From Cycloclasticus sp. (GTDB lineage Bacteria > Pseudomonadota > Gammaproteobacteria > Methylococcales > Cycloclasticaceae), in NCBI GenBank assembly GCA_002733135.1, contig NVUJ01000007.1, forward strand, positions 37,247-95,215: 57,969 bases of DNA. Direction: 5' to 3'. The notes under the pieces are model-generated. The model was not told the origin of the DNA. It searched no databases and worked only from the letters and a program-made list of their open reading frames with translations. Numbering within the stretch: the first letter of the stretch is position 1; each line of letters opens with the position of its first letter. Both the position numbers and the translations under genes were made by a program. Of this stretch, positions 28,919 to 33,046 are shown piece by piece.

Positions 28919-29452
28919 ATGAAACAGGTTGGGCCGAACAAAAAAATTTCAAAAATGATGGTATCACTGGCTTGGGTTGGTTTTCTAGCCATGCTGGTTA
29001 TTGGTTTTGATCGTTATTTGGGACAGCAAGCCAATCCAAATGAGAGTCCTGAAGTGACGTATGCTTCAGATGGCGCTGCGGAAGTTAAGCTAGCTCAAAA
29101 TAAGCAAGGGCACTATATTGCAAATGGCCAGTTAAATGATCATTGGGTAACGTTCGTATTGGATACAGGTGCTACTAATATTAGTATTCCAGCTAAAGTG
29201 GCGCAGAGAATGGGGTTGACTAAAGGTAACCCAGAAAGAACTCGCACAGCCAATGGAGATATTGTTGTGTATCGAGTTATTTTGGGTTCGGTAACGTTGG
29301 GTGCTATAAAATTAAACAATGTGAAGGCCCATATCAACCCACACATGAGTGGAGAAGCCGTTCTGCTAGGAATGAGTTTTTTGAAACATGTTGAAATGGC
29401 CCAAAAAGATAAGCAATTGACGTTACGGCTTAAACCTAGAGCATCTCAGTAA
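28919..29452 (+). CDS. Retropepsin-like aspartic protease, membrane anchored
   Basis: A 177-residue protein with an N-terminal membrane anchor (residues ~13-32) and a periplasmic aspartic-protease domain of the single-domain, dimer-forming type. The active-site motif FVLDTGATNISIP is near residue 80, and LLGMSFLKHVE near the C-terminus is the second conserved element (clan AA, TIGR02281-like). Proteins of this type are common in proteobacteria with unclear substrates. The ribosome binding site is weak. A possible hairpin follows the stop. Confidence 0.88.
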   Translation: MKQVGPNKKISKMMVSLAWVGFLAMLVIGFDRYLGQQANPNESPEVTYASDGAAEVKLAQNKQGHYIANGQLNDHWVTFVLDTGATNISIPAKVAQRMGLTKGNPERTRTANGDIVVYRVILGSVTLGAIKLNNVKAHINPHMSGEAVLLGMSFLKHVEMAQKDKQLTLRLKPRASQ

Positions 29453-29453
29453 G

Positions 29454-29481
29454 TTAGAGTTTAAGCAGGGTTAAACTCTAA
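29454..29481. terminator. Possible terminator hairpin between the convergent protease gene and rpoH
   Basis: A perfect ten-base inverted repeat (TTAGAGTTTA/TAAACTCTAA, eight-base loop) covers the gene junction and the last codons of rpoH. Neither side has a good T run, so termination is only possible, not clear. Confidence 0.4.
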
Positions 29482-30330
29482 TAACTCTTGTTTAACCCTA
29501 TTCATCGCATTTTTTTCGAGTTGACGAATACGTTCAGCAGATACTTCGTATTTGTCCGCCAATTCATGTAGGGTTGATTTCTTATCACTCAACCAACGCT
29601 CGGCGAGAATATTTCTACTGCGTTCATCTAAACGATTAAGAGCAGAGTGTAATTGACGCTCATGGTGCGATTTTTCGCTAAGGTTTTCAATAAGGCGAGC
29701 AGGATCGTGCTCTTCTTTAGTGACAAACGTCGCGGGTGTATGCACGAGTTCATCAGAGTCAGTATTATCATCTTGGTGACCATCAAAGGCCATATCAAAA
29801 TTACTCAGGCGCTTTTCCATTTCATACACGGCAGACTTATCAACACCCAAATCTTGAGCAATAGCGTCGGCTTCATTTTCGTTTAGCCAAGAGAGGTTTT
29901 TCTTTTGTTTTCTTAGGTTGAAGAACAACTTTCGTTGTGCTTTTGTAGTCGCTATTTTCACAATACGCCAATTTTTAATCACGTATTCATGGATTTCAGA
30001 TTTAATCCAATGCACTGCGTAGGATACTAATCGCACGCCTACCTCAGGGTCAAAACGTTTAACTGCTTTCATCAGACCGATGCTGCCTTCTTGAATTAAG
30101 TCTGGTAACGCTAGGCCATAACCACTATAGCTTCTGGCGATATGAATAACATAACGCATATGGGATAAGACAAGCGTACGAGCGGCTTCTAGGTCATTAT
30201 CATCTCGTAGGCGTCGCGCTAACTCTCTTTCTTGCTCTGCCGTCAAGGCAGGCGCAGAAGAAACAGACGCGATGTACGCATCTAGTGAACCTGCAGATAA
30301 ATTCATAGGTATTGCTAAAGCTTGTGTCAT
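29461..30330 (-). CDS. rpoH: RNA polymerase sigma-32 (heat-shock sigma factor)
   Basis: A 289-residue sigma factor that directs transcription of chaperone and protease genes. Region 2 has DLIQEGSIGLMKAVKRFD; the RpoH box QRKLFFNLRKQKK at 132-144 is diagnostic and separates it from other sigma factors. Region 4 ends with a DNA-binding helix (YEVSAERIRQLEKNAMNRV). GGAAGG lies six bases before the ATG. It is downstream of ftsYEX, as in E. coli, but its own promoter overlaps a perfect CIRCE element, so HrcA control of its transcription is predicted in addition to any post-transcriptional control. Confidence 0.98.
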   Translation of the reverse strand: MTQALAIPMNLSAGSLDAYIASVSSAPALTAEQERELARRLRDDNDLEAARTLVLSHMRYVIHIARSYSGYGLALPDLIQEGSIGLMKAVKRFDPEVGVRLVSYAVHWIKSEIHEYVIKNWRIVKIATTKAQRKLFFNLRKQKKNLSWLNENEADAIAQDLGVDKSAVYEMEKRLSNFDMAFDGHQDDNTDSDELVHTPATFVTKEEHDPARLIENLSEKSHHERQLHSALNRLDERSRNILAERWLSDKKSTLHELADKYEVSAERIRQLEKNAMNRVKQELLEFNPA

Positions 30331-30362
30331 TTCTTACCTTCCATAAACATGCCGCGAATATC

Positions 30363-30389
30363 TTAGCACTCGCTATATAAGAGTGCTAA
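30363..30389. promoter_or_regulatory. CIRCE operator (HrcA binding site) upstream of rpoH
   Basis: The sequence reads TTAGCACTC, nine bases, then GAGTGCTAA: a perfect match to the CIRCE consensus in both arms and spacer. It lies 33-59 bases before the rpoH ATG and touches the last base of a TATAAT -10 box, so bound HrcA would cover the transcription start. CIRCE normally precedes groESL, hrcA or dnaK operons; none is in this window. Confidence 0.95.
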
Positions 30390-30418
30390 TTATAGCAAAA
30401 GTTCAGATTCAGTGTAAC
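30389..30418 (-). promoter_or_regulatory. Sigma-70-type promoter of rpoH
   Basis: On the minus strand GTTACA (30418-30413, 4/6 match) is followed after 18 bases by a consensus TATAAT (30394-30389). The start of transcription would fall inside the CIRCE element, making a classic repressor-over-promoter layout. Confidence 0.7.
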
Positions 30419-30427
30419 TAGTGGTTA

Positions 30428-31387
30428 TTAGCTTTCTAGCTCAGACAAATAACGGCTAACAACAACCCATGATCCGACTATTCCCAGCAGTATCGAAAAC
30501 AAAATCCACAGCAGCGCGTGGCTTAAAGGCATTAGTTGTAGGCTAAAGGAACTATTGTATAGAGAAGCTAATGAGCTGGTTGGTCCATCAATTAACAACA
30601 CCGATAGATTGACTAATAGACAGGCAAAAATACCACCCAGCAAGCCATACCAAAACCCGCTGTAGATAAAAGGCCGCATGATAAATGAGCGCGTTGCACC
30701 GACTAAACGGGTGATGTCGATCTCATCACGACGGTTTTGCAGTTCTAATCGGATGGTATTGCTAACAATTAGTAACACCGCAAAGCCCAGTAGAATAGTA
30801 ATTAAGCTAACTCCACGTTGGGCAATACTGAGAATGCCGTTTAAACGCTCAAGCCAACCCATGTCCATTTGTACGAGCTGTATGTTTTGACGTTGCTTGA
30901 GTTCGTTAACCAACGATTCGAGAGCCATTGGGTTATTAAAAGTCTCACTGGGTGTGATTTGAATAACGTGCGGTAATGGGTTTTTTCCAAGCGAACTGAT
31001 GGCGGAACCAAAACCACTATATTGGCGAAACTCATCTAAAGCCTGTTGTTTATTAATTAACAAGGCATGGTGGATTTTGCTGTCTGCTTGCAACGACTCA
31101 GCCAACGCATCTGCCTCGCCAAGGGTGACGTTATTTTTCAAAAATAATGAAATATTATTGTTTAAATCAATTTGGCCGCTTAATGAATGTAGATTATTGA
31201 TGGATACCAACAGGCCAGAAGGTAATGATAGTGTGATAGCAATAACTGCGACAGTCATCATAAAATTAAACGGTGCTCGTGAGAAACGACCAAGGCTGGC
31301 GAAAAATGTATGTAGATGAATCAGCGCATAAGAGCGCAGGCTACCCCGAGCTGTAGGTTTATGAATATTACTGCGACGACTAGCCAC
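30428..31387 (-). CDS. ftsX: Cell division protein FtsX
   Basis: A 319-residue membrane protein with four helices (about residues 43-63, 193-213, 243-268 and 288-312) and a periplasmic loop after the first. With FtsE it forms an ABC-type complex that controls cell-wall hydrolases at the septum. FMMTVAVIAITLSLPSG and EIDITRLVGATRSFIMRPF are family features. The start is GTG, overlapping the ftsE stop by eight bases. It ends 38 bases before the rpoH promoter's -35 region begins to be used by rpoH. Confidence 0.96.
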   Translation of the reverse strand: MASRRSNIHKPTARGSLRSYALIHLHTFFASLGRFSRAPFNFMMTVAVIAITLSLPSGLLVSINNLHSLSGQIDLNNNISLFLKNNVTLGEADALAESLQADSKIHHALLINKQQALDEFRQYSGFGSAISSLGKNPLPHVIQITPSETFNNPMALESLVNELKQRQNIQLVQMDMGWLERLNGILSIAQRGVSLITILLGFAVLLIVSNTIRLELQNRRDEIDITRLVGATRSFIMRPFIYSGFWYGLLGGIFACLLVNLSVLLIDGPTSSLASLYNSSFSLQLMPLSHALLWILFSILLGIVGSWVVVSRYLSELES

Positions 31388-32042
31388 GGTTGTTCACCAA
31401 TTCGCCCTGAGATAATTCAAGGGTTCTATAACCCATGCGTTGAATCAATGAAATATCGTGACTGGCAATTAGCACTGTCACGCCCACTTGGTTGAATTGT
31501 TCAAATAAACCCATAATTTCGGCGGATAGTTCAGGGTCTAAGTTACCAGTGGGTTCGTCCGCAAGAATCATGGGTGGTCTATTAACGACGGCTCTAGCGA
31601 TGCCAATTCTTTGTTGTTCACCTCCAGACAAAGTGATGGGGTAGCGTTGCTCTTTACCAAGTAAGCCAACTTTATCTAGTGATGCGCGAACGCGGCGCTT
31701 AATTTCATGACGGTCAAAGCCAGCAATTATCAAAGGTAGGGCGACGTTATCAAAAACAGTGTGGTCGTGCAGTAGGCGGTGATCTTGAAAAATCATACCA
31801 ATTTTTCGACGCGCATAAGGCACGAGCCTTTGGGATATGCGGCCAATGTTTTGATTATCAAGCATCACTTGGCCTTGCGTACTGCGCTCAAGTACGGCAA
31901 TGAGTTTAAGCAAGGTGCTTTTACCGGCACCAGAATGGCCGGTTAAGAAAGCCATTTCACCATTTTGTAATTCAAAACTGACATTCTTCAATGCATCAGC
32001 ACCACCATGGTATCGTTTGCTAACGTTAAGAAGTTGAAGCAT
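31380..32042 (-). CDS. ftsE: Cell division ATP-binding protein FtsE
   Basis: A 220-residue ABC ATPase and partner of FtsX at the division site. Walker A GHSGAGKST, signature LSGGEQQR and Walker B MILADEPTGNLDPE are intact. The length matches E. coli FtsE (222). It starts five bases after the ftsY stop and overlaps ftsX, the conserved ftsYEX operon. Confidence 0.98.
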   Translation of the reverse strand: MLQLLNVSKRYHGGADALKNVSFELQNGEMAFLTGHSGAGKSTLLKLIAVLERSTQGQVMLDNQNIGRISQRLVPYARRKIGMIFQDHRLLHDHTVFDNVALPLIIAGFDRHEIKRRVRASLDKVGLLGKEQRYPITLSGGEQQRIGIARAVVNRPPMILADEPTGNLDPELSAEIMGLFEQFNQVGVTVLIASHDISLIQRMGYRTLELSQGELVNNRG

Positions 32043-32047
32043 GGTGC

Positions 32048-33046
32048 TTAGTCAGCCTCGTTGGGTTGCTCAAATAATGCCTGAGTGAAATCTTGTGCAT
32101 TAAACTCGCGCAAGTCATCAATCCCTTCACCAATACCAATAAAGCGAATGGGTAGATTAAATTGTTTGGCGATGGCGAAAATAATGCCACCTTTAGCCGT
32201 GCCGTCCAGTTTTGTCAGCGTAATACCGGTGAGCGGTGTCGCCTCATTAAAATGTTTTGTTTGCGCGAGTGCGTTTTGCCCAGTGCCGCTATCAATGACG
32301 AGCATGACCTCATGCGGAGCGTTGTCGTCTATTTTTTTAATCACTCGGTTAATTTTACTGAGCTCGTTCATTAAGTTTGTTTGCGTGTGTAAACGGCCAG
32401 CGGTGTCGGCGAGTAGTACATCTATGTTACGTGCGCGGGCTTTTTCAAATGCATCATAAATAACAGAAGCAGAGTCAGCGCCTGTATGTTGAGCCACAAC
32501 GTCAATATCGTTGCGTTTACCCCATTCTTGCAGCTGCTCAATAGCGGCGGCTCGAAAGGTGTCTCCGGCGGCGAGCATGACGCTTTTACCTTCAGCTTGC
32601 AGGCGTTTTGCTAATTTACCAATGGTGGTCGTTTTGCCCATGCCATTAACACCTACAACCAGTATGACGAAGGGCCTGTCAGTTTTTGGGATGGTTAATG
32701 GTTGTTGGTTGAGCTCTAAAATAGCGAGCATCTCTTGGTGTAATGCGGCGGTTAGAGCTTGTGGGTCAGAAAGCTGTTTACGCGCAACACGTTCAGTTAG
32801 TTGGCCGATGATGTGTTGGGTGGCTTCCATACCAACATCAGCAGATAGAAGAATCATCTCAAGTTCTTCCAATAAGTCGTCATCAATTTGTTTTTTACCA
32901 AGAAACAAATTACCTAAGTCGCCGGTTAAGCCACTGCGTGTTCTGGACAGTTGGCTTTTTAGCCGATCAAAGATACTTTCCTTTTTTTCTTCGACGGGTT
33001 GGTCAACGAGTGTTTCGGCCTTATTTTTTTTACCAAATCCAAGCAT
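32048..33046 (-). CDS. ftsY: Signal recognition particle receptor FtsY
   Basis: A 332-residue SRP GTPase that docks ribosome-nascent chains to the membrane. The G1 motif GVNGMGKTTT, DTAGRLHTQ and TKLDGTAKGG are intact in the NG domain. The acidic N-terminal A region is only about 35 residues, much shorter than in E. coli (497 residues total), which is common in other proteobacteria. First gene of the ftsYEX run, divergent from the M16 peptidase pair. Confidence 0.97.
   Translation of the reverse strand: MLGFGKKNKAETLVDQPVEEKKESIFDRLKSQLSRTRSGLTGDLGNLFLGKKQIDDDLLEELEMILLSADVGMEATQHIIGQLTERVARKQLSDPQALTAALHQEMLAILELNQQPLTIPKTDRPFVILVVGVNGMGKTTTIGKLAKRLQAEGKSVMLAAGDTFRAAAIEQLQEWGKRNDIDVVAQHTGADSASVIYDAFEKARARNIDVLLADTAGRLHTQTNLMNELSKINRVIKKIDDNAPHEVMLVIDSGTGQNALAQTKHFNEATPLTGITLTKLDGTAKGGIIFAIAKQFNLPIRFIGIGEGIDDLREFNAQDFTQALFEQPNEAD

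Follow-up and report, generated by a model that had tools for sequence, protein, structure and literature searches.

Is transcription of rpoH, the gene for the heat shock sigma factor sigma32, controlled by the repressor HrcA in Cycloclasticus, and if so, through what kind of promoter? E. coli rpoH is controlled mainly through mRNA structure and protein stability, and to our knowledge E. coli has no HrcA. We analyzed a 57,969-base stretch of Cycloclasticus DNA (the window) for which a sequence-only reading had proposed such a circuit, based on a perfect CIRCE element lying over the rpoH promoter. The gene at 29461 to 30330 (minus strand) matched the rpoH profiles NF005143 and TIGR02392 above their cut-offs (TIGR02392, 385.4 bits versus a cut-off of 323.1), and the nearest named rpoH among the matches listed is L063, that of a Cycloclasticus symbiont of sponges, at 86% identity. 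The CIRCE-like letters found upstream of rpoH in the L063 record recur in genus member G016. Upstream on the same strand are ftsX (30428 to 31387; TIGR00439 above cut-off) and two genes assigned by profile match, ftsE (31380 to 32042) and ftsY (32048 to 33046), and the gene order ftsY-ftsE-ftsX-rpoH is identical to that of E. coli K-12.

The CIRCE element itself was confirmed. A mismatch scan placed it, with 0 mismatches, at 30363 to 30389 (TTAGCACTCGCTATATAAGAGTGCTAA), and this predicted HrcA operator, annotated without a strand and conserved at the rpoH genes of relatives, has the operator form TTAGCACTC-N9-GAGTGCTAA at a promoter. It is the single site with three or fewer mismatches in the whole window, where 100 shuffles gave a mean of 0.02. 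Reading 5' to 3' on the rpoH strand, we found a weak -35 box (TTACAC), GAACTT, TGC followed by TATAAT, the CIRCE, 32 nt, and the rpoH ATG. TATAAT (30394 to 30389, minus strand), which had been described as abutting the CIRCE, is present but shares one base with it, the last T of TATAAT being the first T of the CIRCE; the TG of the preceding TGC makes it an extended sigma70 -10 box. The weak sigma70 -35 box (30412 to 30418, minus strand) is either TTACAC with a spacer of 17 or GTTACA with a spacer of 18, and the sigma70 promoter scan by itself was not significant, with 1 match versus a shuffle mean of 1.0. A possible 7-codon upstream frame (ATG TTT ATG GAA GGT AAG AAA TGA, 30327 to 30350, minus strand) overlaps the rpoH start codon, and it was not seen in the two rpoH upstream sequences of G002.

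The interval extending to 30418 to which the sequence-only reading pointed does span the CIRCE and the promoter, but that reading missed a sigmaE-type pair of boxes on the minus strand. The -35 box, TGAACTT (30399 to 30405, with GAACTT at 30404 to 30399), lies 16 nt from a -10 box, TCTTA (30382 to 30378), which shares its TC with the end of one arm of the CIRCE. This arrangement, TGAACTT-N16-TCTTA, corresponds to a sigmaE-type promoter with a -35 box near GGAACTT and a TC-containing -10 box at fixed spacing; the sigmaE -10 consensus contains TC. RNA polymerase carrying sigma70 (from the extended -10 box) or sigmaE (from the GAACTT-N16-TCTTA pair) would start transcription inside the operator. 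The region upstream of rpoH in E. coli K-12, after ftsX, carries GAACTT-N16-TCTGA with the same spacing, which we take to be rpoH P3, the sigmaE-dependent promoter. In contrast to the perfect site in the window, there is no CIRCE upstream of E. coli rpoH, where the best match has 8 mismatches, and E. coli gave no match as the control in our hrcA profile search. As described in PMC8103513, the -35 box of E. coli RpoE is GGAACTT, and RpoE drives rpoH P3.

The proposed circuit calls for an hrcA gene in the same genome, and one was found. The genome of the window (an assembly of 1.76 Mb in 24 contigs, 83% complete) has an hrcA match to TIGR00331 at 333.7 bits, versus a cut-off of 197.2, with a 3-mismatch CIRCE, weaker than the rpoH site, about 50 nt upstream of it. 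An rpoE gene is also present (301.5 bits, above cut-off). Besides the hrcA operon, groESL is a usual CIRCE target; we did not find groEL in this 83%-complete assembly.

Comparison of rpoH upstream regions among relatives had been suggested as a check on the circuit, and the site proved to be mostly kept with hrcA and mostly absent without it. Among the best 80 named rpoH loci (L063 to L142), 45 had a CIRCE with three or fewer mismatches within 400 nt upstream; these loci are the best of a larger number of matches to one query, and some of the upstream stretches are short (64 nt for L101). Loci from Methylobacter, Crenothrix, Pseudoalteromonas, Alcanivorax, Alishewanella, Thiodiazotropha, and Ketobacter were among the positives, and in the same set those from Pseudomonas, Acinetobacter, Halomonas, and Aeromonas had no CIRCE in the 400 nt upstream. 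Because the named loci were the best matches to one query, we also sampled the class evenly, taking 140 gammaproteobacterial genomes, one per family, all at least 90% complete except the window's own, which was included. Ten genomes with no rpoH match near the cut-off were dropped, leaving 131 regions from 130 genomes, with G173 retained at 295.9 bits, below the rpoH cut-off, and G090 contributing two regions. A CIRCE with three or fewer mismatches was present upstream of rpoH in 91/100 regions from genomes with hrcA (47 of them perfect) versus 4/31 from genomes without it (Fisher P = 2.8 × 10−16, treating genomes as independent and without correction for phylogeny). In the 27 hrcA-lacking regions without a CIRCE, the best match upstream of rpoH had 5 to 9 mismatches, and the threshold of three is therefore not a delicate one. 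The same distribution was seen within the order, the genus included, where 48/50 regions with hrcA had the rpoH CIRCE versus 1/8 without; this sample comprised 58 regions from 57 genomes (G002 giving two), after 4 of 61 relatives with no rpoH match above the cut-off (G003, G007, G029, and G031) were left out. With a CIRCE in so many hrcA-bearing regions of the class, the rpoH operator is no peculiarity of this genome, and from these alignments the arrangement looks common in hrcA-bearing Gammaproteobacteria.

There were exceptions in both directions. The 9 of 100 hrcA-bearing class regions without an rpoH CIRCE include one of the two rpoH copies of G090, and each of the 8 other genomes has at least one CIRCE elsewhere; in the order, 2/50 hrcA-bearing regions were without the site. 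In the class, G178, G074, G171, and G125 lack hrcA but retain an rpoH CIRCE, as does G054 in the order. A second CIRCE is present in both G178 and G054, whose assemblies may therefore have missed an hrcA gene. In G171 and G074 the rpoH CIRCE is their sole one, and G125 has no CIRCE with two or fewer mismatches.

We also noted three further arrangements in the class sample. In G068 (L253), two CIRCE-like sites lie in tandem before rpoH, the one perfect and the other with a single mismatch. G090 has a single-mismatch CIRCE at one of its rpoH copies (L229 and L237) and none at the other, perhaps reflecting a division of labor. G122, which carries hrcA, has four perfect CIRCE elements, one of them upstream of hrcA, and none was found upstream of rpoH.

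The genus Cycloclasticus provided a natural experiment. No hrcA match was found in 7 of its 18 genomes, and a CIRCE with two or fewer mismatches was missing from the entire genome in these 7 and in no others; five of the 7 are 98 to 100% complete, G001 is 89% complete, and G003 is 80% complete. In the six hrcA-lacking members with a readable rpoH upstream region, the rpoH CIRCE has 4 to 8 mismatches, the count for G001 being inflated by a one-base shift. The groESL CIRCE behaved in the same way, with 0 to 1 mismatches in 9/9 hrcA-bearing genomes tested versus 3 to 8 in 5/5 hrcA-lacking genomes tested, a comparison that excludes G009, where the gene is split between contigs. The sigmaE-type pair, in the form GAAC(C/T)(T/A)-N16-TCTTA, was kept in 5/6 hrcA-lacking members and lost from G009. 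Since this pair mostly outlives the operator, the two functions appear to be separable. The best four-protein tree, which omits the FtsX row of G008 (read in the wrong frame) and has some rows without other proteins, requires 4 changes of hrcA presence, and its well-supported branches force at least 2; an RpoH-only tree was poorly resolved. We infer that these changes were losses, not gains. In G012 (L158), 210 nt separate the CIRCE from the rpoH match, compared with 63 to 80 nt in the other hrcA-bearing genus members, which indicates extra DNA between promoter and gene. We dropped the idea that a CACTC-to-CAGTC change in one operator arm is a compromise with the sigmaE -10 box, since the other arm, away from the -10 box, carries the mirror change, GACTG.

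These comparisons bear on two explanations in which HrcA plays no part. The CIRCE could be a relic that regulates nothing at present or the target of another repressor, as its retention in the few hrcA-lacking class regions would allow; we consider this very unlikely given that the element accompanies hrcA across families and decays without hrcA in the genus. Alternatively, the inverted repeat could fold into a stem-loop in the leader of the rpoH mRNA and serve there in mRNA stability or thermosensing, rather than as a DNA operator. A perfect inverted repeat so close to the start codon fits such a role, but both starts predicted from the sequence fall inside the repeat, so that the RNA would hold one arm alone. 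The decay of the repeat also tracks the absence of the gene for a DNA-binding protein, and an Rfam search of 29300 to 30700 gave no match, making an RNA element extremely unlikely. HrcA control of rpoH is thus the reading we retain, and it is strongly supported by the genome comparisons.

The remaining question was whether the sigmaE-type boxes belong to the promoter under the operator. When rpoH sites of the class were aligned on the CIRCE, [GT]GAAC began 16 nt before it in 46/95 and 17 nt before it in 9/95, with 0 to 3 sites at every other position within 40 nt; the position of the -35 box relative to the CIRCE is thus conserved. GAAC starting 14 to 17 nt before the CIRCE was found at 63/95 rpoH sites versus 1/36 hrcA-promoter sites (P = 4 × 10−12). 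The control sites came from 53 of the 106 hrcA-bearing class genomes, chosen by following the list and passing over G000, of which 36 had a CIRCE with three or fewer mismatches. A sigmaE-like pattern ([GT]GAAC, 17 to 19 nt, TC[TAC]NA), scanned in the last 260 nt of each region, occurred in 62/100 hrcA-bearing regions versus 1.35 expected from shuffles and in 5/31 hrcA-lacking regions versus 0.5 expected. In 49 cases this pattern takes its TC from the end of the CIRCE arm; since the CIRCE dictates that TC, the position of the -35 box counts as independent evidence and the -10 TC does not. The first and third bases of the CIRCE spacer were jointly T and A at 47/95 rpoH sites versus 7/36 hrcA sites (P = 0.003; the Fisher P values count genomes as independent). 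Not every site fits: among the 32/95 rpoH sites without GAAC at 14 to 17 nt, some have a sigmaE-like pair further upstream (G111, G061, and G198), and others, such as G064, G087, and G172, have no such pair within 40 nt before the CIRCE. In the genus, a GAAC and a TC spaced as at rpoH also occur upstream of rpoE in 13/15 genomes, including the window's own.

These data have to be weighed against a simpler scheme in which HrcA represses rpoH through the sigma70 promoter alone and GAACTT is either incidental or used by another ECF sigma factor. Several members of the genus have a well-formed TATAAT with a preceding TG, and the genus groESL genes carry the same CIRCE operator as rpoH behind a TTGACA-type sigma70 promoter, with no GAAC at the sigmaE position in the sites examined; a second, weaker RpoE-family match in the window's genome (37.7 bits, below cut-off) might supply the other ECF factor. 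However, TTGAC was found 21 to 40 nt before the CIRCE at only 3/95 rpoH sites of the class, far fewer than the 63/95 with GAAC at 14 to 17 nt. Most hrcA-lacking genus members have also kept the GAACTT-N16-TCTTA pair, and RpoE is present in the genome. We therefore regard the sigma70-only scheme as unlikely.

Our preferred interpretation, which we consider highly probable, is that the element is an HrcA operator overlapping the start of a composite sigmaE/sigma70 rpoH promoter, with HrcA gating both activities. It draws on the sequence parts, the hrcA and rpoE genes of the genome, the conservation of the site, and the joint absence of operator and hrcA, all of which were observed. The sequence-only reading identified the element correctly and probably also the HrcA circuit, which hrcA presence and conservation support. 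The promoter under the operator, though, looks dual, sigma70 plus sigmaE, so that the circuit would go beyond HrcA control of a housekeeping promoter. Bound HrcA would cover the sigmaE -10 box, the edge of the sigma70 -10 box, and both predicted starts; with both starts inside the operator, HrcA bound there would block both. HrcA loses activity when unfolded proteins titrate GroEL. Titration of GroEL by unfolded proteins would inactivate HrcA and release rpoH, and envelope damage, by setting the activity of sigmaE, could raise rpoH expression further. HrcA binding and repression, the start sites, and the joint logic at this operator are what the arrangement of parts leads us to predict, and sigmaE and HrcA may form a strict two-input gate. 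Two stress signals thus probably meet at one switch that is absent from E. coli.

A CIRCE at rpoH is already in print. The Geobacter sulfurreducens rpoH gene has a likewise perfect TTAGCACTC-N9-GAGTGCTAA at position -51, given as a predicted HrcA target, and Table 8 of that paper gives rpoH for G. sulfurreducens alone (PMC545781). G. sulfurreducens belongs to a different class from the window, and the account of this site in PMC545781 does not tie a sigmaE promoter to it. For β-, γ-, and ε-proteobacteria, PMC545781 refers to Permina and Gelfand 2003, a study that may include γ cases of CIRCE at rpoH. Our searches of open-licence full-text papers turned up no description of an HrcA operator on a sigmaE promoter of rpoH, and hence no earlier description there of the composite.

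We can go one step further and suggest, as an idea that could equally well prove right or wrong, that in the ancestor of the Gammaproteobacteria the rpoH promoter was a single switch in which two signals were fused. The sigmaE -10 box and start would have lain inside an HrcA operator, full envelope-stress drive of sigma32 would have been possible only with cytoplasmic GroEL overloaded, and E. coli P3 would be the remnant left after hrcA loss. The natural absences of hrcA permit direct tests. If the interpretation is correct, most hrcA-bearing Gammaproteobacteria would control sigma32 through a repressor that senses GroEL and binds over a sigmaE promoter. A single DNA site would then connect stress in the cytoplasm with stress in the envelope, and the P3 promoter of E. 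coli rpoH would have a suggested origin.
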